A DNA stretch of 64,000 bases from a virus: the IMG/VR virus record IMGVR_UViG_3300025009_000099, positions 1 to 64,000 of that record; one strand, 5' to 3'. Made by a program: the position numbers and the translations under genes. Under the pieces are notes generated by a model that did not search any database, was not told the DNA's origin, and was given only the letters and a program-made list of their open reading frames with translations. This document shows positions 2,833 to 27,585 of the stretch, in pieces; position 1 is the first letter of the stretch, and each line of letters begins with the position of its first letter.

Positions 2833-5043
2833 TTAACTATATTCACGTTCAACCGTGCTTTCTTTTAATCCACCAGGTGCTTTGCCTAAACTTTGCTGAG
2901 TTCTTCCAAGCTCTAACTGCCCAGAGATTTGTTTATCTTTAAGAGCTAAATCTATTGCATCATTGTCCATGTCTGCAATTGTCTTCTCTTGCTCGAGTTG
3001 CTCTTTTGGAATACTTACGATTATTTGCTGAGTTTCTGCATTCAACTTAGCAACCTTTGCACTCAGCTCTGCAATCTCAGCCTGGAGTTTTTGCATTGCT
3101 AGTTGTTCAGTCGGATCAGGTTGATCTTCTGCAGGAAAGAATCTCTCAACATCTTCGATATCAAGGGCAAGTAAATACTGTCGCAAGATTTCTTGATCAT
3201 TCAATCCTTGACCTCGCAGCTCTAGCATGGCTTTCGCCTTGAGAAGCCTCTGCATCATTGTGGTGCTGTTCGGGTCACTAACCGGCACAACATCAAAGTC
3301 TGCACTAGAAAAGTCAGCCTGAACAATTGCCTGCTGATCATCCAGGACAGCACTATACGTCATCTGATCAAGATAAAGAGCATTCAGTCTCCGTAACTTT
3401 ATGAACTCTTTATATTGGCTACGATACAGCCGTTTGTGGATTGCACTATAGACTTGCAGACCTTGTTCAATAAGTGCAAGCACAGACTCAGCCGGAACAT
3501 TCGCGCCTGGAGAGTTACCCGCCAAGATTTCGGTCATGCCGGCTAGTTCTTTACCACTCTCGATTAGCAATCCGAGCAACTGGAAGAGAACATTACTTGG
3601 CTCACGCACTGGCATGGGGAAGATGTTCTTGCGAAGATCATCGCCTGTAGCATCAACTGGTTTCCATTCTCCAGATTTGACCTGAATGGATTTGCCCCTG
3701 CCAAGTTTAAGACCTCTTCCTAGGAAACCGCTTTGGCGATTCGATAACGTTCCAGCATCCAGCAACTGATTAATTACTGTGTTTATGGCTGAGTTGCTGC
3801 TCATCAAAAGTGAGCCAAACCCCATGCCATAGAATCCACCATCAATCGCAGGCATGAAAATGAATCGAGTAAAATACTGTTCTGGGATGATTTTAACAAT
3901 TGGTCCGTTCGGATCAACTACGCCAGCTTCATCAGACTTGCGAATAATTCCATCCGTGGCAAACCGAGGTGAGATGCGAACTAACTTCTGAGATTGCTCG
4001 TGAACAGTGACAACGTATGGCTCTTGATATCCATCCCCGTCCAGGTCGTACCACCGATGTTGTTCAAGAAACAAATGTGGAGTATCTTCATCTACATCGG
4101 CAGTCTTATCACTGGTAGCTTGTCCAAGTTCTGCTACATCAAACTTGATAAAAATCCCAGAGTTGATGCGTTCAACAATTTCGTTGTGGTACAAATAGAT
4201 TCTATGTGTAACTCGTGGAGCCCGTTCCAGTGATTCGGCAAAGTAATTTACAACCAAATCATCAGCGAAGACTATCTGAGATACAGACTTCCGTTCAATT
4301 GCATCAAAATAACTCTTTTTGAATACACAACCAATTGCAGGCAACGTAAAGAGTAATTGGTCAACACCTTCTTCCCAATCTTCCATTAGTGACAGAAGCT
4401 GGAAAGACATAAACTGAGAAATTCGTTGAGCTTTATCAAACTTAACGTTGTCTGGATCAGTTCCTATTACCTTACCTTTTACGACTTCATTACCTTTGAT
4501 AAGTTCAGGATACGCTCTAGCAGCAAACTGAATGCAGGCATTAATGATTAATGGATACTTAACATTGGCAACGACTTCGCCAGCATAAACCTTTTTCTTT
4601 ACAAGAAGCTTCGCCAGGTCGATGATCTGTACATTGAGAGCTTCCCACTCAGTGCGGCTAGCAAGATCTAGCTTATAACCCTCCAGGACCTTAGTGGTTA
4701 TATCTGCTAAGATTTCCTTATTTTGTTTGTCTGCCAAGTTGGTGATAAGGACAACTGCTTCAGCTCGAAGAGCTTCTTTTTCAACAAGTGCAGTAATAGT
4801 TGGATCTGCCTGAACGGGAGATATAATATCTTCGATGGGTTCTTCAGTTGCCCAAAAAGGAACTTGGCCACTTAGACTTGCTTGTTCGTCATCAGGAAGA
4901 TTAGTTCCTGTATTCAAGGTTGAATTGGTTCGTGTAGGCAGCTTCGCTGCTTGGCCAGCTATAATAGCATTCGCCATCGGAGTCGCTGGATTGCCAGGAT
5001 CAACAAGTTCCTCTACAGAAAATTCAAAACCATTATTAGCCAT
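2833..5043 (-). CDS. portal protein
   Basis: The 736-residue product fits a podovirus portal, the 12-mer through which DNA is packaged and ejected; P22 portal is 725 residues. The block around residues 205-235 (EEGVDQLLFTLPAIGCVFKK) followed by DDLVVNYFAESLERAPRVTH is characteristic of this portal group. The C-terminal 100 residues are Gln-rich and helical, as in a barrel. It lies downstream of TerS and TerL, as usual. The start follows AGGAA and overlaps the preceding small gene by 8 nt. A short palindromic repeat at 4931-4954 is embedded in frame and encodes part of the N-terminal arm (QAAKLPTRT). Confidence 0.9.
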   Translation of the reverse strand: MANNGFEFSVEELVDPGNPATPMANAIIAGQAAKLPTRTNSTLNTGTNLPDDEQASLSGQVPFWATEEPIEDIISPVQADPTITALVEKEALRAEAVVLITNLADKQNKEILADITTKVLEGYKLDLASRTEWEALNVQIIDLAKLLVKKKVYAGEVVANVKYPLIINACIQFAARAYPELIKGNEVVKGKVIGTDPDNVKFDKAQRISQFMSFQLLSLMEDWEEGVDQLLFTLPAIGCVFKKSYFDAIERKSVSQIVFADDLVVNYFAESLERAPRVTHRIYLYHNEIVERINSGIFIKFDVAELGQATSDKTADVDEDTPHLFLEQHRWYDLDGDGYQEPYVVTVHEQSQKLVRISPRFATDGIIRKSDEAGVVDPNGPIVKIIPEQYFTRFIFMPAIDGGFYGMGFGSLLMSSNSAINTVINQLLDAGTLSNRQSGFLGRGLKLGRGKSIQVKSGEWKPVDATGDDLRKNIFPMPVREPSNVLFQLLGLLIESGKELAGMTEILAGNSPGANVPAESVLALIEQGLQVYSAIHKRLYRSQYKEFIKLRRLNALYLDQMTYSAVLDDQQAIVQADFSSADFDVVPVSDPNSTTMMQRLLKAKAMLELRGQGLNDQEILRQYLLALDIEDVERFFPAEDQPDPTEQLAMQKLQAEIAELSAKVAKLNAETQQIIVSIPKEQLEQEKTIADMDNDAIDLALKDKQISGQLELGRTQQSLGKAPGGLKESTVEREYS
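4931..4954. repeat. short palindromic element, copy inside portal gene
   Basis: The stem is GCAGC-TTC-GCTGC at 4938-4950, within CGTGTAGGC..CTTCG..GCTTG. It shares this frame with the intergenic copy at 5235-5258. The stem positions that differ do so in compensating pairs (AG/CT here, GA/TC there, AA/TT in the third copy). It is translated in the portal N-terminal arm. Confidence 0.6.
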
Positions 5044-5200
5044 TATTAATTTCCTGAGATCTAATTTGTTTTCCTAATCTGTGAACTACCTGTACTGCCC
5101 ATGGACGCAAAAGTTCTGGATATCCGATAGTCCGTAAGATGTACATTTTATACATAAAACGGAAAAAGCGTTTAGAACAATATCTTTCATCTAGTTCCAT
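5036..5200 (-). CDS. unknown small basic protein, 54 aa
   Basis: I chose the ATG at 5200, which has a GGATA upstream, over a TTG at 5260 that lies in the palindromic element and has no ribosome site. The product is rich in Arg, Tyr and Phe and ends ...GKQIRSQEINNG, overlapping the portal start by 8 nt, so the two are probably coupled. No family recognised. Confidence 0.55.
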   Translation of the reverse strand: MELDERYCSKRFFRFMYKMYILRTIGYPELLRPWAVQVVHRLGKQIRSQEINNG

Positions 5201-5234
5201 TTTAGTATCCGACAGATTAAGTAAAGTGATTATA

Positions 5235-5258
5235 CGTGTAGGCGACTTCGTCGCTTGC
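5235..5258. repeat. short palindromic element, intergenic copy
   Basis: The stem is GCGAC-TTC-GTCGC at 5242-5254, in the 75-nt gap upstream of the 54-residue gene. It is the partner of the copy at 4931-4954 and shares flanking CGTGTA beyond the stem. No T-run follows on either strand, so a terminator is unlikely. Confidence 0.6.
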
Positions 5259-5610: not shown

Positions 5611-7080
5611 TTAGTATCCTGTAACTAGACTTGCTTCCTGGTGATTGTAAAGTTCACTTTCTTCCCACGCCTGAAACTCCCAATAAGGCTTAGCGATTGC
5701 TCGCTTGAGTCCAGACATAATCAAGTAACGAGTGCAGTCCATAAGGTGATCGCGATCTTTAACGATTTGGCCGTTCTCATCCCGGCGATAAAGCCTAAAC
5801 TCGCTAAACCAATTAACCAGCGAACCAAACACTTTCAGGCGATTAGTGCTAAGCATTTGCCACACAGCATACAAGCCGGCTTCAACTGATTTGTTAGCAT
5901 TCTCAAGGTCAAGTCCTAACCCAAAGTATTGTTCAAAAAGTTGCTTTCCGTCATCTTGCGAACGGCCATGTGCAGCTGAATCAACTACGCCTGGAATCCA
6001 TACACCACGAGCTCTGATAGCATCCGCATGAATCAGTGGCAACTGTTGGCCTTGGTAATATTCGGAATACAAGTAAGTTATGTTGCTGGTAGGATCTGTG
6101 GCTGCCCAAACAGTTGCAGTCTTCTTCCAGCCTACATCCAACGCATAGCAGCGGAGCCAATGATCGGGAATAGCAAAATCTTCTACGGTAATATTAGATT
6201 CGAGGATAGGATAAATTGCACCAGAACCTAACTGCGGAACGCCTTTAGACCTGGCGTCTCGTTGATGAGGCGGAAGGGCTGCCCATAACTTGTCTTTCTG
6301 TTCTTTAGTTAAGTGTGGCGCATCATCCCATGTTGCCTGGATTAGAAACTTGCTACCTTCTTGATTATCTTCTATTTTTCCGTTTGGCATGAACTGAAGA
6401 ACAGTATCAGTTAGGCCTTCAAGAGGAGTAAAGGTCAGCATAATCAGACCATTCGTCGTCATGGTCCTGGTAATACATTCAGTATAGATGGGCAATGGAC
6501 ATTCTTCGTCCAGCCAGATCAGATCCTGCTCTGTGCCTTCAAAAGACTTTCGACCTTCTGCATAAGATTTGATCTTAATCCGAGATATGCCACCAGAGAT
6601 ATGCTTGACCAAAATCATATCTATAGCATTTGCAACTCCGCCGGCTTTCGGGCTAGTTTTGATTATATACTTTTCTGGTATCAAACCAGTCCCATATTCT
6701 TCAGGATTGCCAATAAGTTTATACTGAACGATATCTCTGGCAGTTGTACTGGTCGTTCCACAGGCCCAGATTGAAACTGGTTTGGTGAAACGCTTTCCAG
6801 TCCACCAACCTGGATAGCGACCTGTTGCATGTAGGGTTGTTTCGTATGCACCAATCCCTTCGGACTTTCCTATGCGGTTTGCAGCCATGATGCAACGCTC
6901 AGAAAAATCTGCGCCGGCTGCAAAGAACTGCATGTGCTTAGGATAATTATCTCGACTCAGTGGACCGTCATCTGGATAATACTGGGTAATCTTATTTTGC
7001 TTGATCCGAATGTTCTTGGCTTGCAATAGTTTTAAATATTGCTCTTTGCGGTCTCTATCAAGGTGGGAAAGATCCATCAT
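5611..7080 (-). CDS. terL: terminase large subunit
   Basis: The packaging ATPase-nuclease that pumps DNA through the portal and cuts concatemers. Visible motifs are a Walker A-like AANRIGKSE (residues 66-74), Walker B LIWLDEE (187-193), a coupling motif TFTPLEG (216-222), and RNase H-like nuclease acids at D315 (ALDVGW), D367 (VVDSAAHG) and D448 (HLMDCTRY). The length of 489 is normal. The start overlaps the TerS stop as TAATG; the second codon is also ATG, so the true start may be one codon later. The motif set is complete, so the enzyme is probably active. Confidence 0.95.
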   Translation of the reverse strand: MMDLSHLDRDRKEQYLKLLQAKNIRIKQNKITQYYPDDGPLSRDNYPKHMQFFAAGADFSERCIMAANRIGKSEGIGAYETTLHATGRYPGWWTGKRFTKPVSIWACGTTSTTARDIVQYKLIGNPEEYGTGLIPEKYIIKTSPKAGGVANAIDMILVKHISGGISRIKIKSYAEGRKSFEGTEQDLIWLDEECPLPIYTECITRTMTTNGLIMLTFTPLEGLTDTVLQFMPNGKIEDNQEGSKFLIQATWDDAPHLTKEQKDKLWAALPPHQRDARSKGVPQLGSGAIYPILESNITVEDFAIPDHWLRCYALDVGWKKTATVWAATDPTSNITYLYSEYYQGQQLPLIHADAIRARGVWIPGVVDSAAHGRSQDDGKQLFEQYFGLGLDLENANKSVEAGLYAVWQMLSTNRLKVFGSLVNWFSEFRLYRRDENGQIVKDRDHLMDCTRYLIMSGLKRAIAKPYWEFQAWEESELYNHQEASLVTGY

Positions 7081-7766
7081 TATGACCTTTTAATATTGTG
7101 AAAGGGATCAAATGATAGGTCTTCTAAAATTGAGGTATCTTCCATCAGAAGGGGCTCTTCAAAATCTTCGTCAGGAATAAAGAGTCCAGCTTGTTCTTCA
7201 GTACAGAATAAATCTTCCAGAGATAAATCATCCTCGTTAGCAGGCATCGTGACAACAGCATGATCTGAAGCAAGAGGAATAGTTGCAAAGGAGAGGTTGT
7301 GTTGTAAGGACTTTTTAATCTCTGGAAGATTTTTACCACCTGTGCGATTGATAGCTTCTTCTATGGCTGCTATCTCAGCATCGAGCTCTTCATCAGTTTT
7401 GGTTTGCAGCGTCATGTCAATGTTCAACCGATCGGGAGCCTTATACCCATTGCGGTCTAGAACATCTTTGGCTGCATTAAATTGTACGGATGCTGGAACA
7501 GCTTTGCGAGAACTAGAGTTGAGAAGGTGCTCAAAGGTTGCAAGCGCCTCCTTGTTGAGGCTGACAAGTTTCTTTCTTACGTCCAAAGTTGCTTCGTGCG
7601 CCCTGTCTTGAAGGCCATTCAAGTAGGCTTGCCCAAGAGGTGAGCGGAGGATTGTAGATACGGAAGATTGTGCCATACCAAGACGCTCAGCAATTTCCTG
7701 ATTCTTATATCCATTAAAGGCCATCTGGATAATGTTGCGATGCTGAGATTTTAATTCTTTCAACAT
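7080..7766 (-). CDS. terS: terminase small subunit
   Basis: The 228-residue product has a helix-turn-helix near residues 16-40 (GYKNQEIAERLGMAQSSVST), a central helical region, and a long acidic C-terminal tail. This fits TerS, which recognises the packaging site and loads DNA onto TerL. It is the first gene of the leftward late run and overlaps terL by one base. The ribosome site is weak. Another DNA-binding protein is possible, but the terL linkage makes TerS by far the likeliest. Confidence 0.88.
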   Translation of the reverse strand: MLKELKSQHRNIIQMAFNGYKNQEIAERLGMAQSSVSTILRSPLGQAYLNGLQDRAHEATLDVRKKLVSLNKEALATFEHLLNSSSRKAVPASVQFNAAKDVLDRNGYKAPDRLNIDMTLQTKTDEELDAEIAAIEEAINRTGGKNLPEIKKSLQHNLSFATIPLASDHAVVTMPANEDDLSLEDLFCTEEQAGLFIPDEDFEEPLLMEDTSILEDLSFDPFHNIKRS

Positions 7767-9279: not shown

Positions 9280-9405
9280 ATGAAATATTCAAAACGCTTC
9301 ATAAGTTTCTTTAATCGCAAATCCGCGCCATACCTGCCTGAGTGGGTTATTGAAGCATGGTATGTGCAATTTAATGATGTTGACTTCCATCTGGTGACAG
9401 TATGA
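9280..9405 (+). CDS. small protein, 41 aa
   Basis: The ATG follows CTGGAGAC, and the frame ends in an ATGA overlap with the next gene. The product (MKYSKRFISFFNRKSAPYLP...) has a basic aromatic N-terminus. Translational coupling to the next gene is the main reason to believe it. No family recognised. Confidence 0.5.
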   Translation: MKYSKRFISFFNRKSAPYLPEWVIEAWYVQFNDVDFHLVTV

Positions 9406-9617
9406 AAATAGCTAAGCTCTCAAAAGACGTAACTTACGGAATTACGTTTGCCAAAGCAATTAAACTAACCTCAGATCGTGAGGAAATGAAAGTTGTGCGG
9501 TGCATCCTTTGTAATGACTGCCATAACGTTGGCAGAGTGCTTAAATATCTTGGCTTAATGCCTGAACGTTACAACAAGGCTATTCAGACAGGCATCTGCA
9601 TTGAGCTATCACGATAA
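9402..9617 (+). CDS. unknown early protein with CILCNDC motif, 71 aa
   Basis: It starts in an ATGA overlap with the 41-residue gene. A CxxCxxC segment (CILCNDC) near residue 36 could bind metal. It is the last gene before the terminator at 9650, so 8806-9617 probably forms a short transcription unit. No family recognised. Confidence 0.6.
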   Translation: MKIAKLSKDVTYGITFAKAIKLTSDREEMKVVRCILCNDCHNVGRVLKYLGLMPERYNKAIQTGICIELSR

Positions 9618-9649
9618 TAAAAAAGCCTAACAACCTTGATTTAACCTTA

Positions 9650-9684
9650 GCCCGATTAGGTTCATGTGACCTTTTCGGGCTTTT
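9650..9684 (+). terminator. rho-independent terminator
   Basis: GCCCG pairs with CGGGC, an inner AGGT/ACCT pair extends the hairpin, and TTTT follows. It closes the first early transcription unit and isolates the phased repeat region downstream. Confidence 0.75.
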
Positions 9685-10043
9685 CTTATTGCTAATGCCT
9701 AACAAACTGTAAATTGCCTAACAGACTGGATTGCATGAATGATGATTAGATGATGATTGTATGGGCGTTCGATGGTGAACAGGAATATAGTGTGTACAAA
9801 CGTGACCAAAGGTGCCCAAAGGTGTTCAGGTGGTGTCAAAGGTGGGCACATGGGCACATATAAATGGCACCAAACGGGCACTAAACGTACACACCTGTCA
9901 CCAATAGGCACCGGCTGGACACACATAATTGGCACCGGCTGGCACCACATTAACATCAACTGGCACCACATGGGTACAGGTAGGCTAGAAAAAGGTAATC
10001 ATTTCAAAGAGTTACAATCCTGTGTGTCCAAAAGTGTCCAATA

Positions 10044-10162
10044 GTGTCCAACCGTACACCTCCCCCCCGTGTCGTGAGTGGGGAGGGGTGTCTGTTTTAG
10101 TATTTAATTTTTTTATTAAATACTTAAATAGAATGGTCGGGGGGAGGTGTACACACGGACAC
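10044..10162. repeat. nested palindrome with A+T-rich core
   Basis: The outer arms GTACACCTCCCCCC (10054-10067) and GGGGGGAGGTGTAC (10139-10152) are perfect 14-bp inverted repeats, extended by GTGTCC at 10044 and GGACAC at 10157. The inner arms AGTATTTAAT (10099-10108) and ATTAAATACT (10115-10124) are perfect, with a T6 loop. G+C-rich arms around an A+T-rich core between two repeat blocks resemble a replication origin with an unwinding element. Confidence 0.65.
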
Positions 10163-10293
10163 TTTTGACGCCAACCGTACACAGCCCTCAAATTCCCCAA
10201 CAATATCAACCACTTACACAAGCAACCTGTCACCAAAAGGCACCAAACCATTACCACCCGGCACCAAAAATGACACCAACCGACACCAAACCC

Positions 10294-10323
10294 TTGACAA
10301 ACGGCACCAAACCATGTTACAAT
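10294..10323 (+). promoter_or_regulatory. strong promoter of the RHH gene
   Basis: TTGACA (10294-10299), an 18-base spacer and an extended -10 TGT-TACAAT (10318-10323). It lies inside the right-hand GCAC block, with units on both sides and between the boxes, so a protein bound to the array should control it. Confidence 0.7.
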
Positions 10324-10392
10324 GGCACCAAACAGCACCACCTGTCACCACGGCACACTACCTCAATCAACCTCAATCAACGGAGTCTCACT

Positions 10393-10965
10393 ATGTCAAG
10401 CCCTCACATGTCCTTTCGCCTAAACCATTACCAACTCGCCAAAGCATTAAGAATCTTAGTAACTCTTGAACCAGACCAACCAATAGCATCATTATCCCAG
10501 GCAGCCAAGCTAATAATCATCGACTGGATATCAAAGCACTCCATCCATACATCGTTAGAGTGTGCTCAAGCAGACATAAAAGCCATTGAGACAATCATTG
10601 CTCTGCCTGTAAATCAAATAGACCCATACACAACCATTCAAAATATTATGGCTCAAGCAAAAGCACAATCTCAACCATTGTATGACCAACAAGCATTTCA
10701 GATAAAAGAACAGGCAAAAAAATCAGCTCAGCAGAGACAAAGAGAAATTGAAGATGCAAGACTCTTTGAACAAATCAAACGTGAATCACGAGAAGAACAA
10801 GAAGCAAAAAATAAAGAGCTTGAGACACAAATAGAGTTATCTTTGCATACAGGCCAAAGACTTCCCAAGCCATCGGAATTTCATGATCCGAATAACACCG
10901 AATCAGAAATATCAACTATAACTGATTTCAGCCCGCCAAAAGATTGGATAGACAGCGAGGAATAG
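10393..10965 (+). CDS. ribbon-helix-helix protein with charged helical C-terminus
   Basis: I chose the ATG at 10393, which follows CGGAGTC and comes after the promoter; the frame is open further upstream but only through the repeats. Residues 1-50 fit an RHH fold: strand MSFRLN, helix QLAKALRILVTL, and a second helix from SLSQAAKLIIIDW. The rest of the 190 residues is polar and helical, with an Arg/Glu/Gln-rich coiled coil at about 95-155 and an acidic end. It is clearly paralogous to the protein at 14091 (shared MSSP, FRL, QLA, LEP, SLSQ). Placement directly behind the phased array suggests it binds the array and represses its own promoter, or acts as origin or partition protein. No ParA or ParM partner is visible in the window. 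Confidence 0.7.
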   Translation: MSSPHMSFRLNHYQLAKALRILVTLEPDQPIASLSQAAKLIIIDWISKHSIHTSLECAQADIKAIETIIALPVNQIDPYTTIQNIMAQAKAQSQPLYDQQAFQIKEQAKKSAQQRQREIEDARLFEQIKRESREEQEAKNKELETQIELSLHTGQRLPKPSEFHDPNNTESEISTITDFSPPKDWIDSEE

Positions 10966-10979
10966 CCACAACTAATTAG

Positions 10980-11023
10980 CGGGCATAACGTGGTGGAATT
11001 ACACAGTTTTTACGTTATGCCCG
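10980..11023. promoter_or_regulatory. 12-bp inverted repeat in a 341-base non-coding region
   Basis: CGGGCATAACGT (10980-10991) and ACGTTATGCCCG (11012-11023) pair perfectly over a 20-base loop, just after the RHH gene. No T-run follows, so it may be an attenuator, operator or weak terminator. The remaining gap to 11306 is unusually rich in C, with many CCACC and CGCCACG repeats and AGCAC/GGCAC units near 11184-11196, and holds no believable gene. Confidence 0.5.
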
Positions 11024-11222
11024 TATAGCCACCACAACGGCCACCACGCCACGTTTCCCGCCGTCCATGCAACCGTACCCACACGCCACGTCCGGCCTAC
11101 CACGGCGATCCTACGCCCTTCCTGGCCCTATTTCGCCCTGCCACCATACTATATACACACCACCAACCGACTACCACACCGTAGCACAACGGCACAATCG
11201 TAAACCGCCTACGTGTTTTTTG

Positions 11223-11251
11223 TTGACAACCCCACTTGTCTACGGTACAAT
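11223..11251 (+). promoter_or_regulatory. strong sigma-70-type promoter
   Basis: A perfect -35 TTGACA, a 17-base spacer and -10 TACAAT. GCAC units lie 25-40 bases upstream. It should drive the gene at 11307 and the run of small genes behind it. Confidence 0.75.
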
Positions 11252-11306
11252 AACACAAGATACAGCCATACCATTTATCCAGTTAAAATCACTTAGGAGA
11301 ATTATC

Positions 11307-11519
11307 ATGGTAAATCTTGACATTAGAATTAACATCATAGGCCAAAACAAGGATAACATCATTGTTGAGTTTAGCGTTCCAGATGAGTGGTCAAACATTC
11401 AAGAGATTGCAAAAACTGCAACAATGCAAGACTTTATAGAGTTATACGAATGCATAACACCAGACATAGTAAAAGACTTTTCTGATATTGTTGTTATGAA
11501 AAACTCCTTTAATCAATAA
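11307..11519 (+). CDS. unknown protein, 70 aa
   Basis: The ATG follows TAGGAGA and lies 56 bases after the -10 box, which rules out the longer upstream frame. The product alternates strand-like segments (LDIRINIIGQ, NIIVEFSVP) with helices. No family recognised. It is the first gene of the unit that also encodes the small RHH protein at 11545. Confidence 0.65.
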   Translation: MVNLDIRINIIGQNKDNIIVEFSVPDEWSNIQEIAKTATMQDFIELYECITPDIVKDFSDIVVMKNSFNQ

Positions 11520-11544
11520 ATTAAAATCTTTCCTTAGAGCTAAT

Positions 11545-11832
11545 ATGACTGTTCAAAAAGTTACTTTATCAATAGATGCAGAAACATACCAGAGATTTCA
11601 AATAATCAAAAAGTCAAAAGGCTTGTCAATTTCTGCCTGGGTAACTTCGCTAATGCAAAAAGAGATTGAAGAATACCAGAAAGGACGAATAGTTAAACTT
11701 GCTTCAGGTATTGAAATTGCTGAAGCAATGTATTCAGCTGGAATGAGACTTGATATTATTAAAGAAAAACTTCTTCCTGTTTATGGAAATGACATAATTG
11801 AAGAAATTATGAAACAAATAAAATTGGTATGA
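11545..11832 (+). CDS. small ribbon-helix-helix protein, 95 aa
   Basis: The N-terminus has the RHH pattern: strand KVTLSID, helix ETYQRFQIIKKSKG, then helix SISAWVTSLMQKEIEEY. Such proteins usually repress by binding operators as dimers, often as antitoxins or copy-control proteins. The C-terminal half is a separate helical domain. No toxin-like partner lies next to it. It differs from the RHH family at 10393 and 14091. Confidence 0.65.
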   Translation: MTVQKVTLSIDAETYQRFQIIKKSKGLSISAWVTSLMQKEIEEYQKGRIVKLASGIEIAEAMYSAGMRLDIIKEKLLPVYGNDIIEEIMKQIKLV

Positions 11833-11903
11833 TCAAATCCAGGCAATAGATATCAACTGAATTACAACCCTTAAATGAATTACAACCATCACCAGGAGCT
11901 ACC

Positions 11904-12080
11904 ATGAGACTAACTCAAGCAAACTATTATCTTGTAATTCGCCAACTTAGAGATACCATCAGCCGAGGAACAATCGTCGCAGGATATAAAACCAAAGAAC
12001 AGGCAGACCAGGACAAAATTGACTATCTAAAACGACTTCCTAATCACAATGTCTGGGTTATATCCAGAGAAGATTATTAA
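11904..12080 (+). CDS. unknown protein, 58 aa
   Basis: The ATG follows CAGGAGCT. The product is soluble, mixed alpha/beta and ends NVWVISREDY. No family recognised. The stop lies 10 bases before the next start. Confidence 0.6.
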   Translation: MRLTQANYYLVIRQLRDTISRGTIVAGYKTKEQADQDKIDYLKRLPNHNVWVISREDY

Positions 12081-12090
12081 GGTTACAAAT

Positions 12091-12378
12091 ATGAACACAA
12101 CATTCTATTATGCTCTTATCCCAAGTGAGCTATTCCACCTGCAAGAGCAATGCACAATCTGGCTGCCTGAAACCCAGCCACTTGACCAAGCAATCTGGAA
12201 GCCCAACCAGATCATAGCAACCTGCGATCTTAGCTACTTATTTCAAATTGCTGAAAAGATCAAGATCGGAGCCATCTCACCAGGTGAAGTTATTTGGATT
12301 GAAGTAAAGAATCAAACAGCGACAGCTTACACATTTAGCAACGATGGCAAGATTGCAAACTTTTTCAGAATTGTATAA
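12091..12378 (+). CDS. unknown protein, 95 aa
   Basis: I chose the ATG at 12091, behind AAGG, over an upstream in-frame ATG that lies inside the previous gene. The product (MNTTFYYALIPSELF...) looks beta-rich and contains IKIGAISPGEVIWIEVKN, compatible with a small beta-barrel. No family recognised. Confidence 0.55.
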   Translation: MNTTFYYALIPSELFHLQEQCTIWLPETQPLDQAIWKPNQIIATCDLSYLFQIAEKIKIGAISPGEVIWIEVKNQTATAYTFSNDGKIANFFRIV

Positions 12379-12383
12379 CCAAA

Positions 12384-12404
12384 CCAAGCAACGAAGTTGC
12401 CCGC
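12384..12404. repeat. short palindromic element, third copy
   Basis: The stem is GCAAC-GAA-GTTGC (12388-12400). Read on the other strand it gives GGCAACTTCGTTGCTTGG, matching the two copies near the portal gene, with AA/TT in the variable pair positions. CCGCTTTT follows, so this copy could also work as a weak terminator after the gene that ends at 12378. Confidence 0.5.
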
Positions 12405-12437
12405 TTTTAACCACCATCCATAAGGAAAAGATTAATT

Positions 12438-12578
12438 ATGAGAAAAAAGAATGGTTCAGTACAACAAATATGGACTCGAGTGGGTAGCCGAAGTACATCG
12501 AACCTGGAAATAATTGGCTGCCTAATCACCAGGTCAAAGCCATCAAATTATAAAGGTTTTGACCTGGTTATGAGTTAG
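12438..12578 (+). CDS. doubtful small frame overlapping a hairpin, 46 aa
   Basis: An ATG frame with AAGGA about 11 bases upstream. Its product has little protein-like character, and a 20-codon frame at 12452 (MVQYNKYGLEWVAEV...) looks more natural but is very short. The 3' half holds a perfect 11-bp inverted repeat (12528-12538 with 12558-12568, ACCAGGTCAAA), so the stretch may be a decayed gene or a regulatory RNA element. Confidence 0.25.
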   Translation: MRKKNGSVQQIWTRVGSRSTSNLEIIGCLITRSKPSNYKGFDLVMS

Positions 12579-12620
12579 TCAATTTAATATCTTTAATATT
12601 GCCAAACGATTAGTTTCGCT

Positions 12621-12634
12621 GTTCATCCGTGAAC
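12621..12634. promoter_or_regulatory. operator-like palindrome GTTCA-TCCG-TGAAC
   Basis: It has the same half-sites and spacing as the sites at 8027, 22660 and 63869, with a different spacer sequence. It lies 42 bases before the next start codon, in an intergenic gap. Confidence 0.5.
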
Positions 12635-12675
12635 GGCCATTACAAAAACAACCACTGGGAGGACATATTACAATC

Positions 12676-12864
12676 ATGAAGAAGAAAACAATTCGTTTCT
12701 ACAACAGCTTTGGTACCTATATGGGATGGAAGTATCTTGCCAATGTGACATACTTTGAACTTATTAACTGGCTCAAAGCTGGCAACACATTAAGATTCCA
12801 GAAGCAAACACTTACTAAGGACTCCACCAGTAATGAAATCTTCAAACTTTTGCGGAGGTCATAA
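12676..12864 (+). CDS. unknown basic protein, 62 aa
   Basis: The product starts MKKKTIRFYNSFGTYMGWKY and ends FKLLRRS. The GGGAGG upstream is about 14 bases from the ATG, longer than usual. The stop overlaps the next start as TAATG. No family recognised. Confidence 0.6.
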   Translation: MKKKTIRFYNSFGTYMGWKYLANVTYFELINWLKAGNTLRFQKQTLTKDSTSNEIFKLLRRS

Positions 12865-13187
12865 TGACAATGACATCAGAAGAGATTATGTCTTTCCAAG
12901 GCCACGAGTTTACCTATTTCTTTGAAGATGAAGATACAATGCCAGCCTATATTAAGAAAATAGATTTAAAGAAAAATCAAATGTCTTGCTGGAGCTTTTC
13001 ACTAGTTACAGATAATGGAACTGCATTTCTACCATCAAATGAAAATGAAGAAACTGAAGGGGCTTGTTGCTTATGTTTTGAAGATAGTTTAGCTAAAATT
13101 ATTGAAATTATTACAGAAATAAAAACTACTGGAAAACGTTTATATAAACAAAGAGGTCTTGGATCTTTTGCAGGCTGTCCATTCTAA
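12864..13187 (+). CDS. unknown acidic protein, 107 aa
   Basis: It starts inside the previous stop (TAATG), so it is translationally coupled. The product is acidic, with a CCLC triplet near residue 70 and a Cys near the C-terminus. The codons are A+T-rich. No family recognised. Confidence 0.6.
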   Translation: MTMTSEEIMSFQGHEFTYFFEDEDTMPAYIKKIDLKKNQMSCWSFSLVTDNGTAFLPSNENEETEGACCLCFEDSLAKIIEIITEIKTTGKRLYKQRGLGSFAGCPF

Positions 13188-13198
13188 GGAGCTTAGCC

Positions 13199-13648
13199 AT
13201 GAAAAAACTCTGTCCAGTTTGCAACACCCTCAATGAAGCAATCGGCTTCAATCTAAGCGAAAAAGAAATCCATAACATTAGTAAGATTGGTTTGTCTGAA
13301 CATCTTTGCAAGACTTGCTATCAGAAAGAACTTTCCGCCAGGTTAGATGCTACCAAAGCTACACTTATCCCACTTAATAAAGAAAAATCAACTCTTCAGG
13401 TTGCATACCATAGGGCATATGACGCCTGGAAAAACGAAGCCAGCTTGTACCAAGCAATAGATTATAATCTCAGCCTAATAAAGCATGTAGTCAAGCAGAA
13501 GGAAGCCACCATAACTAAGAAGGCTCCCAAAGAAGTTGATCCAATCAACGCTGAGCTTTTCTGCAAACAGTTTCTTGCCACCCTGAGTAAAGAACAACAA
13601 GCAGCGATAATTCAAACCTTTAAAGCAACTCAAACTATTGGTATTTAA
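13199..13648 (+). CDS. zinc-finger protein with shared C-terminal tail, 149 aa
   Basis: A strong AAGGAGC site precedes the ATG. CPVC near the N-terminus and CKTC about 35 residues later form a likely zinc site. The middle is a charged helix, and the end (LFCKQFLATLSKEQQAAI...) matches the tail of the proteins at 8806, 18824 and 25646. The fold suggests a nucleic-acid or protein adaptor. No family recognised. Confidence 0.65.
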   Translation: MKKLCPVCNTLNEAIGFNLSEKEIHNISKIGLSEHLCKTCYQKELSARLDATKATLIPLNKEKSTLQVAYHRAYDAWKNEASLYQAIDYNLSLIKHVVKQKEATITKKAPKEVDPINAELFCKQFLATLSKEQQAAIIQTFKATQTIGI

Positions 13649-13650
13649 TC

Positions 13651-14091
13651 ATGATTAAAGAATTTCAAGGTAATTATCGTTGGCTATCTAACTTTGCTCC
13701 AGTAGATATAGTAATAAGAGATAAAGCTTATCCATCAGTTGAACATGCCTACATGGCTATGAAAGCTCCAGATAATGCTGACTGGCAAAGTTTTTGTAGT
13801 AATAAAAGTAATTCTGCAGGAAAAGTTAAAAAAGCATCTAAATTTATTCAGCTTCGACCTGATTGGGATGATAATTGTAGACTTACTTTAATGAAGCTTT
13901 TGTTAAAATTAAAGTTTTCACAAAAGCCTTTTCGATCAAAACTCATATCTACAGGAAACCAAAACATTCAAGAAGGCAATTATTGGAATGACAAATTCTT
14001 CGGAATATGCCTAAAAACAGGTGAAGGAGAAAATCATTTAGGCCGCTTAATTATGAACATTCGAGATCAAATTAATAATGGAGTATTATAA
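13651..14091 (+). CDS. NADAR-family protein (YbiA-like)
   Basis: The 146-residue product follows the NADAR (DUF1768) pattern: GNYRWLSNFAPV at the start, YPSVEHAYMAMKA, a central IQLRPDWDD, and an end block EGNYWNDKFFGIC with NHLGRLIMNIR. NADAR proteins act on ADP-ribose-linked N-glycosides, and family members remove ADP-ribose from guanine in DNA, reversing DarT-type toxins. In a phage it may counter such a host defence or recycle nucleotides; that is inference. The stop overlaps the next RHH gene (TAATG), so the two are made together. The codons are A+T-rich. Confidence 0.85.
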   Translation: MIKEFQGNYRWLSNFAPVDIVIRDKAYPSVEHAYMAMKAPDNADWQSFCSNKSNSAGKVKKASKFIQLRPDWDDNCRLTLMKLLLKLKFSQKPFRSKLISTGNQNIQEGNYWNDKFFGICLKTGEGENHLGRLIMNIRDQINNGVL

Positions 14092-14372
14092 TGTCAAGTC
14101 CAATCATTACATTTCGCCTCACCACAGATCAGCTGGCTCGCGGACTTCAGATTGTTCGCAGCCTGGAGCCGAACTTTCAGCTTACGAGTCTTAGCCAATT
14201 AGTTAAGATAGTTTATACTGATTACCTGGCAAAAATGACCCTTGGCCAAACAGATAAAGTTGACCAAGACATTATGCAAGAAATTCAGATCTTTATCAGC
14301 AATCCCAGAAAGAAAGAAATCAACTTGGCATCCTTAGCAGATGAGGAAAAAGTCACTCATCAAGAGGTATAA
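14091..14372 (+). CDS. ribbon-helix-helix paralogue, 93 aa
   Basis: Strand IITFRLT, helix DQLARGLQIVRSLEP and helix SLSQLVKIVYTDYLAK give an RHH fold. It aligns over about 50 residues with the protein at 10393 but lacks its long C-terminal coiled coil. It is coupled to the NADAR gene by TAATG. A likely DNA-binding dimer, perhaps sharing target repeats with its longer paralogue. Confidence 0.7.
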   Translation: MSSPIITFRLTTDQLARGLQIVRSLEPNFQLTSLSQLVKIVYTDYLAKMTLGQTDKVDQDIMQEIQIFISNPRKKEINLASLADEEKVTHQEV

Positions 14373-14373
14373 T

Positions 14374-14682
14374 ATGAAAAGAATACACGTAAACAACATT
14401 GTTATTTGTAAAACATATTATGCAGTATGTGTTGGTTCAATATCAGCAATACAGTTTGAAGAGATAATGATCCCTAAAGCCACAGTACATAATTTCAGTA
14501 CAGATTTCACTTATGACTGGTACTTGTCTGATATTGGTATTGAATATGAAAATGAATCATATATAAACAATCTTAATCGAGTATTTGAAACGGAAGAAGA
14601 AGCTAGGAATTGGATAAGTACTGAAGAGTATAAACGAGATTTAGATCAGCATTGGAATATATGTTATTTTGGTAAATACTAA
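14374..14682 (+). CDS. unknown protein, 102 aa
   Basis: I chose the ATG at 14374 with AGAGGTAT upstream; an in-frame ATG at 14341 lies inside the RHH gene. The product is acidic, rich in Tyr and Trp, and has a helix rich in Glu (EEEARNWISTEEYKR). No family recognised. Confidence 0.6.
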   Translation: MKRIHVNNIVICKTYYAVCVGSISAIQFEEIMIPKATVHNFSTDFTYDWYLSDIGIEYENESYINNLNRVFETEEEARNWISTEEYKRDLDQHWNICYFGKY

Positions 14683-14709
14683 CAATCAATCAATTAAAGG
14701 AATTCACCC

Positions 14710-14970
14710 ATGAGTAAAGCTCGCGTAGTTTCAACCCGCATGACCATTGAAGACCTCGCCAAAGCGCGTGACGGCCTACTTGCTAAAGGCATCGAAGCAT
14801 CTGACTTAACAACAACAAGTCAGCTTATCAAACTTACCTTCTACTACGGCATCATTTATCTCTGCCAAGATCCTAAAACTCCACCCAGCCAGGCATCCAC
14901 AGAATTTATAGGGCAAAAGTTCAGCCAAACAAAAGCAACCAGGGGACTGACCTTAACTGATCTGGAGTAG
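14710..14970 (+). CDS. divergent ribbon-helix-helix protein, 86 aa
   Basis: The ATG follows AAAGGAA. Strand VVSTRMT, helix EDLAKARDGLL and helix TTTSQLIKLTFYYGII resemble the RHH proteins at 10393 and 14091, at lower identity. The C-terminus is polar and probably disordered. A third member of a small DNA-binding family in this phage. Confidence 0.6.
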   Translation: MSKARVVSTRMTIEDLAKARDGLLAKGIEASDLTTTSQLIKLTFYYGIIYLCQDPKTPPSQASTEFIGQKFSQTKATRGLTLTDLE

Positions 14971-14992
14971 TTCAATATTAAAAGGAGCCACA

Positions 14993-15136
14993 ATGTTTCA
15001 CTCATATATTTATAAAGCAATTGGTAGTTGGATATGTAAAACACTTAATTTTCTTCTATTAATTGGCCTCATATCTTTGTGTGGATTTTGTATCTACTTA
15101 GGCTATAAATTTATTAAGTTTCTAATTAGTATTTAA
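14993..15136 (+). CDS. small single-pass membrane protein, 47 aa
   Basis: A strong AAAGGAG site precedes the ATG. A hydrophobic stretch at about residues 18-36 (LLLIGLISLCGFCIYLG) spans the membrane once, with Lys on both sides. Function unknown. Small early membrane proteins in phages often alter host physiology or exclude other phages, but nothing here proves it. Confidence 0.6.
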   Translation: MFHSYIYKAIGSWICKTLNFLLLIGLISLCGFCIYLGYKFIKFLISI

Positions 15137-15149
15137 CAGAGCTAATGCC

Positions 15150-15377
15150 ATGAAAAACCTTCCATTCTACAAAACCCCAAACGATTTTAAATGTCCAGCC
15201 TGCAATCAGTCCTGTCGCATAATTGCCTTAGACGATTCATTTGGTTATTCTGGTACTCATTGCACAGCCGGACAAGCAGGCATTCACTATCCATCTGATT
15301 ATGGCTCGCCTGTGACTGATTGCTGCGAGGCAGACGTACCAGATGCTGAACTTGACGAACCAGATTATGACTATTAA
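15150..15377 (+). CDS. zinc-ribbon-like protein with acidic tail, 75 aa
   Basis: CPACNQSC near residue 15 and a later HC...CC (ending near residue 59) could hold zinc, and the last 15 residues are almost all Asp, Glu, Tyr and Pro. It is directly upstream of the helicase gene, so it may be a helicase accessory; that is inference. Confidence 0.55.
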   Translation: MKNLPFYKTPNDFKCPACNQSCRIIALDDSFGYSGTHCTAGQAGIHYPSDYGSPVTDCCEADVPDAELDEPDYDY

Positions 15378-15392
15378 TAAGAGGTGAAAGTC

Positions 15393-16895
15393 ATGGTAAT
15401 GAAATACAAAGGTAAAACTCTTACCACCGAACAAGAGTCGCACGTAAGCACCATTCTTGACGGTAACAATTATGCAATCCAAGCACCTCCAGGTTCTGGC
15501 AAGACCTTTTTGTTGCTTGCAATGGCTCGCAAGATGTCAGGATATGGCTTATCCATCTCATTCAACAAACTTCTCGCCCAAGAAGCAGCTACCAAGTTTT
15601 CAAGCAGCATAATGTGCAAAACCGGCCATGCATTAGCCTATGGCACAATTGGCTACAAATACAAGAAGAAGCTCAGCAAATTGACAGGCAAACAACTGGC
15701 TGATACTTTCGACATTGGTGAATGGCAGCTATATAACAGTCCAGCCAACAAAGGATACTTAATCCTAAATACAATTCGCAAATACTGCTATTCTAGTGAC
15801 GAAGTTATTCAGTACAAACATTTGCCTAGACTAACAATCTTGCAGGATGCAGACCTGAATATTATGCGTGAAGATTTAGTTCATTATGCTAATCTGGTGT
15901 TTAATGAAATGGCCGATGTTAACAAGCCTATGCCAATCACCCATGATGTTTATCTCAAAATATGGGCACTCACAAACCCAATAATTAATAAAGACTTTAT
16001 CTTCTTTGACGAATACCAGGATAGCAACCCAGTCATTGCGCAAGTTATCAAGAATCAAAGTTGTCAAAAGATCTTCGTTGGCGACTGTTTTCAGCAAATC
16101 TACAGTTGGAGAGGCGCCGTTAATGCACTCCAGGATGACAATCTGGCAAAGCTATACATTACTAGAAGTTTCCGTTTTGGAGAGAATATCGCAAGTATGG
16201 CAAACACCATAATTACTGGTTACTATCCATATCAGTTCGAATATGTGCCATTTCATGGTAACGATGATGTTACATCTTCAATCCATTATGAGCCACTTCC
16301 AGCTGTAGATGCCATTCTATGCCGGACAAACAAAGGCATCATTGCAGAAACCATAGAAGCTCTGGGCAAAAATCTTTCCGTCCACATCCTTGGAGGGACG
16401 CAACAACTTACATACCTTATCAACTCTATAATTCAGCTCAAGCTCCAGGGGTATTCAAATCATCCAGACCTCTTCCTATTTAAGAACTTCGCAGATTTAA
16501 AGGAATATGCAGATTCTCCAATGGGCGGAGATATTAAACCCATCCTCAAATTGATCGAACTCTATGGCAGGGAACGCTTACTAAGTATACTTGAATCAAC
16601 TGTGGAAGACCCAAACGAAGCCGATGTAACCATAACTACCGCACATAAAGCAAAAGGTTTAGAATGGCCTAGAGTGAGGCTGGCCAATGATTTCAAGGTT
16701 CCCAGTGATAACGGGAATCCAACAACTGAAGAAACCAACATCTTGTATGTAGCTGCCAGTCGAGCACTTCACCAACTCGATGTGAGCAAATGCGAAGCTT
16801 GCTGGCCTCATACATTTGACAAAGCCCGTAAGGTTGCCTATGAACAATGGCAAGTAGATCAAATGATTGAACAAGAAACAGGAGATTTACAATGA
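15393..16895 (+). CDS. superfamily 1 (UvrD/Rep-like) DNA helicase
   Basis: The ATG at 15393 is preferred over a GTG at 15384 because the GTG lies in the GAGG ribosome site. In the 500-residue product: Walker A APPGSGKT (31-38), motif II DEYQDS (206-211), motif III GDCFQQIYSWRGA (230-242), motif V TTAHKAKGLEW (415-425) and motif VI LYVAASRA (451-458). All SF1A motifs are present, so it should be an active 3'-5' helicase. It is shorter than UvrD and lacks large 1B/2B insertions. It probably unwinds phage DNA for replication or recombination. Confidence 0.92.
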   Translation: MVMKYKGKTLTTEQESHVSTILDGNNYAIQAPPGSGKTFLLLAMARKMSGYGLSISFNKLLAQEAATKFSSSIMCKTGHALAYGTIGYKYKKKLSKLTGKQLADTFDIGEWQLYNSPANKGYLILNTIRKYCYSSDEVIQYKHLPRLTILQDADLNIMREDLVHYANLVFNEMADVNKPMPITHDVYLKIWALTNPIINKDFIFFDEYQDSNPVIAQVIKNQSCQKIFVGDCFQQIYSWRGAVNALQDDNLAKLYITRSFRFGENIASMANTIITGYYPYQFEYVPFHGNDDVTSSIHYEPLPAVDAILCRTNKGIIAETIEALGKNLSVHILGGTQQLTYLINSIIQLKLQGYSNHPDLFLFKNFADLKEYADSPMGGDIKPILKLIELYGRERLLSILESTVEDPNEADVTITTAHKAKGLEWPRVRLANDFKVPSDNGNPTTEETNILYVAASRALHQLDVSKCEACWPHTFDKARKVAYEQWQVDQMIEQETGDLQ

Positions 16896-17086
16896 CAGAA
16901 AATAAAATTATTATAGACGAATGGACAATTACATACAATCCTAAACCTATTCCTGATCGTAGATTTGATTATGATGTTGTGCATAAAGACTATGATGAAG
17001 ATAATAATTTATTTTTCTATGCAGCTTCAATAGAAGAAGCAAAACAAGGAATTACAGCTCGCTTATTGGAGGATCTTAACCAATGA
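16892..17086 (+). CDS. unknown acidic protein, 64 aa
   Basis: It starts in an ATGA overlap with the helicase stop and ends in another ATGA overlap, so it is tightly coupled on both sides. The product is acidic and Tyr-rich, with an AASIEEAKQGITARLLEDL helix at the end. No family recognised. Confidence 0.6.
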   Translation: MTENKIIIDEWTITYNPKPIPDRRFDYDVVHKDYDEDNNLFFYAASIEEAKQGITARLLEDLNQ

Positions 17087-26154: not shown

Positions 26155-27585
26155 ATGCAACTCTTCCAAATAGAAGAAAGAAACATTTCAGACATCATAA
26201 TCAAAGATCGCGCCCGTACAGCAGTAGGCGACATCTCCAGCTTAGCTGATTCAATCTCGATGGTCGGCCAGCTTCATGCAATCCTAATCGACTCGAATAA
26301 CGTCTTAATCGATGGCCTTCATCGCATCGAAGCCTTTAAGAAACTTGGCAGGGAAACAATCGAAGTAAGGGTCTTCGATGGCATTACTGAAGACGATCAC
26401 TTTTTGATCGAACTCCTCAGTAACATGGACCGAAAGGAGTTTCTGTGGCATGAAGAAATAGACCTCAAGTATAAGCTTCACAACTATTGGGTAGAAGCAG
26501 CAGGCAAGGAAAGCAAATCTTGGGGCTATCGTGAAACAGCCAAGCGGCTCAAGTGCAGTCTCGGTGGCTTATCTACTGACCTAGCTTTCGCAGAAGCTCT
26601 CAAAGTCTTCCCGATTCTCAAAGAACAGTCTACTAAAGGCCGAGCTAAGGAAGCTTACAAAGCTCTTGGTGAACAAGCTAAGGCACTTCAACGAATGGGA
26701 AGTTTCACAGATGCTGAAAAAGGGCGTTTAGTTGCTCTGCAAAATGGAACCATGACGGCACCGATAAAGAACACGGTAACTCAGAATGTATTTGAGAAAA
26801 CCAAACAAGCCAAAGAAAGACTTGCAGAATTTGACGAGGATGATGAAGAGCTTAACGATGAACAAGAATCAACCAGCTCTAACATCCAAGTAATTTATGT
26901 AGCCGAAAACTACAAAACCTTCCTAGATAAGATTCCAAGCAACTCTGTGGGGATGGTAGAACTCGATCCTCCTTATGCAATTGATTTCAACGATAACTAT
27001 GGTAAAACGAATAAGATCGAATGTAAAGCCCAAGACTGGGATGAAAAAGAGCTTTATGACTTCTACTTTAATTATCTTCCGTTAGTCTATGAGAAGATGC
27101 TTGACTGTAGTTGGGCTTTAGTCTGGACAGGCAAAGAACATTTTATACAGATCAATAACATTGCAAGAGAAATAGGATTTGGAACTCAAGAACCAGGAAG
27201 CTGGAATAAAAAAGGTGGAAGTACAAATAAACCAAAAACAAGAATGGTGAGTAGTTGGGAAATGTTTTTACTTCTTTCTAAAGGAAATGCACAATTTAAT
27301 ACACCAAGTTTTGATTCATCAGTAATTTTATCAACTGTTCCTTCAAGTCAACGCATTCATCAGTGGGAAAAGCCGATTGAGCTTTATGATCATTTCTTAA
27401 AAGCATTAGGTAAACCTGGAACGTTATTTATGAGTCTCTTCGCAGGATCTGGTAATTGCTTGATTAGTGCAGCCAAAGAAAAAATGATGCCAGTTGGTTG
27501 TGATAAGAGCCAGAAGTATATTCCAGAATTTTACCAGAGACTTGAAAATTATTTGGGAATAACTGCTGAAGTGGAAGGACTTTAA
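26155..27585 (+). CDS. ParB-nuclease-like / DNA methyltransferase fusion
   Basis: The 476-residue product starts with a ParB/Srx domain (residues 1-90: SLADSISMVGQLHAIL, DGLHRIEAFKKLG), then a helix-turn-helix-like region (about 120-150), an acidic linker (225-245) and a methyltransferase with DPPY (271-274) ahead of FAGSGN (429-434). That motif order is the beta class, making N6-methyladenine or N4-methylcytosine. It probably methylates phage DNA, to protect it from restriction or mark origins; target unknown. ParB-methyltransferase fusions are known in phages. No restriction gene adjoins it. Confidence 0.88.
   Translation: MQLFQIEERNISDIIIKDRARTAVGDISSLADSISMVGQLHAILIDSNNVLIDGLHRIEAFKKLGRETIEVRVFDGITEDDHFLIELLSNMDRKEFLWHEEIDLKYKLHNYWVEAAGKESKSWGYRETAKRLKCSLGGLSTDLAFAEALKVFPILKEQSTKGRAKEAYKALGEQAKALQRMGSFTDAEKGRLVALQNGTMTAPIKNTVTQNVFEKTKQAKERLAEFDEDDEELNDEQESTSSNIQVIYVAENYKTFLDKIPSNSVGMVELDPPYAIDFNDNYGKTNKIECKAQDWDEKELYDFYFNYLPLVYEKMLDCSWALVWTGKEHFIQINNIAREIGFGTQEPGSWNKKGGSTNKPKTRMVSSWEMFLLLSKGNAQFNTPSFDSSVILSTVPSSQRIHQWEKPIELYDHFLKALGKPGTLFMSLFAGSGNCLISAAKEKMMPVGCDKSQKYIPEFYQRLENYLGITAEVEGL

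Follow-up and report, generated by a model that had tools for sequence, protein, structure and literature searches.

A periodic repeat array around an AT-rich core, exchanged jointly with an RHH-like protein domain: a candidate replication origin in uncultivated phages

The window, i.e., the whole stretch of DNA analysed (64 kb from the 64,927-bp record of an uncultivated virus), contains a leftward late operon, which encodes TerL (5611-7080), TerS (7080-7766), portal and further proteins, as well as a rightward early operon that begins at 10393. These operons diverge around 8-10 kb, and nearly all genes point away from the core locus at this divergence. Among the phage genes are a family-A polymerase, a DUF3987 primase-helicase, an SSB and, judged from its ORF sequence, a ligase; PHROGs and Pfam searches of these genes returned no match to a replication initiator, O homologues included. 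Tyrosine integrase (PF00589) and ParA (PF13614) were each found in 0/11 genomes, the controls scoring 14/14, and a search for ParM (PF06406) gave no match, but its control was silent too. Every early ORF longer than 200 aa carries another assignment, so that none is left for ParM or TubZ. Although the genes of the early operon are on the plus strand, plus-strand GC skew (9400-17000) stays negative for its first 7 kb and then turns positive. Farther along (26155-27585), a ParB-like N-terminal domain is fused to an N6/N4 DNA methyltransferase (Pfam PF01555, PHROGs ParB-like).

The initial annotation had described a repeat array at 9798-10393 and proposed a search for a 10-11 bp period, and both the array and its periodicity were borne out. 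With the core excluded, base autocorrelation reaches z=7.4 at lag 10 and z=4.5 at lag 21, compared to a 99th percentile of 3.4 for the best lag among dinucleotide shuffles; exact 5-letter matches number 37 at lag 10 (1.4 expected), 25 at lag 21, 14 at lag 31 and 13 at lag 43, and all four lags stand far above shuffles. This is the strongest repeat region of the 64 kb: a lag score computed over 300-bp segments attains its maximum of 46 here, the median across the window being 1, and nothing else comes close. The five gapless 10-bp units reported at the left edge are present at 9798-9847 (AAACGTGACC AAAGGTGCCC AAAGGTGTTC AGGTGGTGTC AAAGGTGGGC), and the roughly 20 GGCAC/GACAC/GTCAC units correspond to twenty G[GAT]CAC sites in 9845-10356, with 12/17 gaps inside the two blocks measuring 10, 11, 20 or 21 bp. 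The latter units had been described as direct repeats; the array does not consist of direct repeats throughout, since its innermost units (GTGTCC at 10024, 10034 and 10044, and GTACAC) have inverted orientation on the two sides of the core. In total, about thirty short candidate protein-binding units of the 10-bp type lie around the core, on both sides of it. Just left of the array are three GCCTAACAACCTG-like repeats of 13-15 bp (9620-9735) and a rho-independent-like hairpin (9649-9681), each of which occurs in relatives as well.

The palindromic core was likewise confirmed, in the form of two distant arms with 24/29 positions paired that enclose an AT-rich T-run (Table 1). The arms beat every shuffle in most genomes, though their letters differ between genomes (GTACACCTCCCCCC in the window, GTAAACCCCACCC in the relative L099, AAGTCAACTACCCCCCCC in L159), and the core locus is present in one copy per genome. 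An intrinsic terminator in the core was considered and rejected, in that the near hairpin is not kept in L009 and L014 and the distant arms are. On either side of the T-run is a match to the IHF consensus WATCAANNNNTTR (PMC7581858), for which chance would supply about 0.08 perfect matches per 600 bp, although the host may lack IHF. Most array-bearing relatives have the left site at -88 to -110 from the T-run and a perfect match on the right at +84 to +111; both are missing from the three arrayless relatives checked (L050, L051 and L062).

The strong promoter previously noted in the right block is also present (TTGACA-18-TACAAT), and an array unit occupies its spacer in all close relatives. In these genomes the core, the arms and the right IHF-type site are nearly invariant, and the distance from that site to the -35 box is either 74-76 or 85-86 bp, a step of one helical turn. 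Relatives from IMG/VR have a common order of elements, running from array through IHF-type site and inverted arm to the AT-rich T-run core, and then, mirrored, through inverted arm and IHF-type site to an array over the promoter of the tailed RHH gene. A second non-coding stretch (11020-11250), C-rich and with repeated CCAC words, has a strong TTGACA..TACAAT promoter before 11310; a similar stretch stays beside the core in L050 and L051, with GTATAC in the promoter spacer.

Table 1. Features at and near the core locus (positions in the window)
Feature	Position	Strand	Basis
Outer left array, five gapless 10-bp units, consensus AAAGGTGNNC	9798-9847	+	sequence; tandem repeat finder (9797-9824)
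Left block, GGCAC/GACAC/GTCAC units spaced 10-11 or 20-21 bp	9845-9967	+	site positions, lag matches
Left IHF-type site TTTCAAAGAGTTA, 1 mismatch to WATCAANNNNTTR, 103 bp left of T-run centre	10002-10014	+	consensus match
Three inner GTGTCC units, inverted, part of left arm	10024-10053	-	sequence
Left arm of long inverted repeat (GTACACCTCCCCCC)	10039-10067	+	pairing with right arm
AT-rich T-run core (TCTGTTTTAGTATTTAATTTTTTTATTAAATACTTAAATAGA), candidate unwinding element	10091-10132	+	conserved in relatives
Right arm of long inverted repeat	10139-10167	-	pairing with left arm
Right IHF-type site TATCAACCACTTA, perfect consensus, 99 bp right of T-run centre	10204-10216	+	consensus match
Right block, about 10 units, over promoter	10229-10356	+	site positions; relatives
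Sigma-70-type promoter TTGACA-18-TACAAT, GGCACCAA unit in spacer	10294-10323	+	sequence; kept in relatives
Tailed RHH protein, 190 aa	10393-10965	+	ORF; relatives
RHH-like DNA-binding domain, type RHH1	10393-10557	+	helix layout, sequence pattern
Conserved C-terminal tail (SEFHDPNNTESEISTITDFSPPKDWIDSEE)	10858-10962	+	relatives' proteins
Tailless RHH paralogue, type RHH3; homologue tailed in L050/L051	14091-14372	+	sequence, model
More distant RHH-like paralogue	14710-14970	+	sequence

Downstream of the array, the 190-aa gene named in the initial annotation does start at 10393. Its product ends in a tail with acidic residues and the motif TDFSPPKDW (TDFSPPxDW across relatives), and its N-terminus is probably RHH-like, with a strand-helix-helix arrangement in about 45 residues, as judged from its sequence pattern and from the helix layout in a model of the RHH3 paralogue. 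That model (pLDDT 79) has an extended segment at residues 1-11 and helices at 12-25 and 34-49, with block pLDDT mostly 86-94 across residues 11-70, whereas the full-length AlphaFold model of the 190-aa protein (pLDDT 59) is too poor to interpret. Searches of Pfam, PHROGs, PDB sequences and Foldseek returned nothing significant for the protein, the best PDB sequence match being a CopG/Arc/MetJ antitoxin at E=1, and isolate phages, plasmids and GTDB genomes yielded no relatives of the protein or of its tail. Another small RHH-like gene (11545-11832), with weak CcdA/Arc-like matches, is unrelated to the tailed family.

In IMG/VR we found 23 relatives of the RHH protein and 45 of the terminase, all of them metagenomic and many from related samples, such that they are not independent. 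In these genomes the tail is fused to three different RHH-like domains: RHH1, as in the window; RHH2, in L023-L025, L056, L096, L098 and L099; and RHH3, in L050 and L051. RHH1 is replaced by RHH2 in L023-L025, L056 and L135, and the array word, which is either of the CACCA type or of the GTAAAC type, is replaced jointly with the RHH domain on a nearly unchanged backbone. Array word and tailed-RHH type agree in 25/25 genomes. Two of these, L021 and L022, also have a tailless RHH2 gene, which separates the array from the tailed RHH1 gene, yet their array is of the RHH1 type. Two independent swaps fall on well-supported branches, both in agreement with the array word; given the poor resolution of the tree built from neighbouring gene 8806, two is a lower bound on the number of swaps.

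The extent of the exchanged cassette is evident from DNA identities between the window and L025: the flanks are 77-89% identical, with the terminase and flanking genes nearly the same, whereas identity falls to 44-56% in the array, 41-57% in the arms and 49% in the RHH domain, and returns to 86% in both the AT core and the tail. Across swaps of array and RHH domain, the AT core stays 84-86% identical. It is also retained where the site has neither array nor RHH gene, and in L050 and L051, whose tail is on the RHH3 type, core and arms remain without an array. The helical phasing proposed for the array applies to part of this diversity: spacing is strictly 10.5 bp in RHH1-type relatives, but RHH2 arrays are spaced 8-10 bp and weakly phased, so that strict phasing characterises the RHH1 class rather than the whole system. 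Upstream of its tailed gene, L099 has a very dense RHH2-type array (4850-5250) of about 38 GTAAAC/GCAAAC units in one orientation, mostly 8-10 bp apart. The presence of a single tailed RHH protein per genome is a tendency rather than a rule, since IMGVR_UViG_3300020045_011884 (L094/L095), probably a chimeric assembly, has RHH1-tailed and RHH2-tailed genes in opposite orientation.

If the RHH domain reads the array, we would expect the cassette pattern seen against L025, and if the core and the tail act independently of that specificity, we would expect both to be unchanged by a swap. Because the array word tracks the type of the tailed RHH protein, this protein very probably recognises the array, and, given the overlap of the array with the promoter of the gene, it very probably represses its own transcription as well. 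The link between array and RHH protein that the initial annotation suspected is thus supported, and the pattern points to a putative control centre of matched protein and sites that is exchanged between related phages.

Of the functions initially entertained for this locus (origin, partition or DNA-organising site, large operator), we tentatively favour a phage replication origin organised by the RHH protein; the case is circumstantial, and we hold it somewhat less than evenly likely. It is favoured because the design resembles that of lambda ori and its initiator O, in which sites adjoin an AT-rich tract, specificity resides in a domain and the partner-binding part is constant: here array sites, putatively those of an initiator, flank the AT-rich core, and the binding domain and sites covary while the tail, the presumptive partner-binding part, does not change. 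Also in its favour are the single-copy core, its place where the operons diverge, IHF-type sites that accompany arrays only, a set of phage replication genes with no recognised initiator among them, and the searches that found neither integrase nor ParA. The tailed RHH protein would bind the array units as neighbouring dimers on both sides of the core and repress its own promoter, which the right block encloses. Aided by DNA bending at both IHF-type sites, it would fold about 500 bp into a symmetric complex in which the T-run core is presented along with the acidic FSPPxDW tail in many copies. The RHH domain would confer origin specificity on the initiation of phage DNA replication, the strands would open at the AT core, and the tail might recruit a partner that stays constant, for which the phage primase-helicase and a host loader are candidates. 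As a whole, from array complex and IHF bends through tail recruitment to replication start, we consider this model just short of an even bet. That the RHH protein is itself the initiator, its domain setting type specificity on the symmetric array, its constant tail recruiting the replisome and the cassette defining origin compatibility types, is a more doubtful proposition, and we know of no RHH protein established as a replication initiator.

Several observations count against the origin model. The core site is not clearly marked by GC skew; the RHH2 arrays are not strictly phased; the RHH fold is read from a helix layout; and, to judge by the arrayless relatives L050, L051, L062 and L159, the core may do without the array in whatever role it has. 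The locus is a candidate origin in phages that encode a family-A polymerase of their own and in which no initiator could be recognised; were the origin model true, RHH proteins would join the kinds of replication initiator. Since the specificity of this protein-site pair has been swapped naturally at least twice with the rest constant, both recognition and function are directly testable.

The main rival, which we regard as unlikely, is that the locus is a large operator only, at which many RHH dimers bind cooperatively and tightly autoregulate the early promoter, possibly also silencing that of a same-type phage in a co-infection, with the core and IHF-type sites shaping a repression loop. The operator function itself is very probably at least part of the truth. 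In favour of the operator-only reading, the right block encloses the promoter, whose spacer holds a unit in all close relatives; RHH phage repressors such as Arc are autoregulators, and repressor immunity groups show the same co-exchange of binding domain and sites. If regulation were the sole function, however, the left array and core would not be expected 200-500 bp upstream, nor so many more sites than a single promoter needs, nor an AT core that is retained through a change of specificity and even where the site lacks array and RHH gene; moreover, the integrase search uncovered no lysogeny genes.

A packaging or genome-end site, with terminase starting at the core and the RHH complex marking it, is improbable. 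It would accord with the position of the locus 2 kb from TerS, with the genome ends just upstream of the terminase genes in terminase relatives (e.g., Bruynoghevirus), and with lambda cosB, which uses an IHF site; but at 34 terminase loci the contig ends scatter across 0-13.6 kb without clustering at the core, and so give no support to a genome end there, the RHH gene is early rather than late, and TerS has a non-coding gap of its own, 700 bp long, immediately upstream. There is similarly only a slim chance that the locus organises DNA or excludes superinfecting phages, its complex titrating or silencing genomes of the same type within one cell: phages of the RHH1 and the RHH2 type whose late genes are almost the same occur together in metagenomes 3300024999 and 3300025000, as expected if type identity matters in co-infection, but any swapped specificity module would co-occur likewise.

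We give least credence to the idea that a phage maintained as a plasmid uses the locus for partition, in the manner of ParR/parC or of an RHH ParB with its parS. To our knowledge, parC has no counterpart of the IHF-type sites and AT core, and both lysogeny and partition are disfavoured because integrase, ParA and any large unassigned early gene are lacking; the ParR/parC identity raised in the initial annotation is therefore unsupported, ParA being absent where its control worked and no early gene being available for a partition motor. Specificity swaps do define incompatibility groups in such systems too, ParR binds 10-11 bp direct repeats in R1 and pB171 (PMC9426499), and RHH ParB sites overlap the promoters of partition genes (PMC9499535). 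An attP site for phage integration was rejected for want of a tyrosine integrase in the genomes searched.

Among known systems, ParR/parC of R1 and pB171 is similar in its RHH-type protein, 10-11 bp repeats, array around or over the promoter and family-specific recognition, and here both the match of array to RHH protein, as indicated by anatomy and co-exchange, and the promoter overlap recur; unlike it, the present locus has no ParM that we found, belongs to an early phage operon and includes IHF-type sites and an AT-rich core with inverted C/G-run arms. Omega, the RHH ParB of pSM19035, and its parS offer a further parallel, with short repeats that are densely packed and abut one another, a single RHH dimer on each, overlap with a promoter and autoregulation, but pSM19035 has 7-bp heptads, a ParA (delta) and no central AT core. 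The iteron plasmid origins of pSC101 and R6K combine iterons, an AT-rich segment, an IHF site and an autoregulated initiator, all of which have likenesses here, whereas their Rep initiators are winged-helix proteins, their repeats are about 18-22 bp and their layout is not symmetric about a core. Lambda O is split into N- and C-terminal domains, which pair type-specific binding with a constant partner part. In lambda ori, iterons and an AT-rich tract are bound by this phage initiator (PMC7466680). Although the locus described here, known from its sequence, differs from lambdoid O/ori in its RHH-like domain, its approximately thirty 10-bp units on both sides of the core and its built-in IHF-type sites, it resembles that system in having an array of putative initiator sites beside an AT-rich tract, next to or within the gene of the binding protein, and in apparently joining type-specific binding to a constant partner elsewhere.
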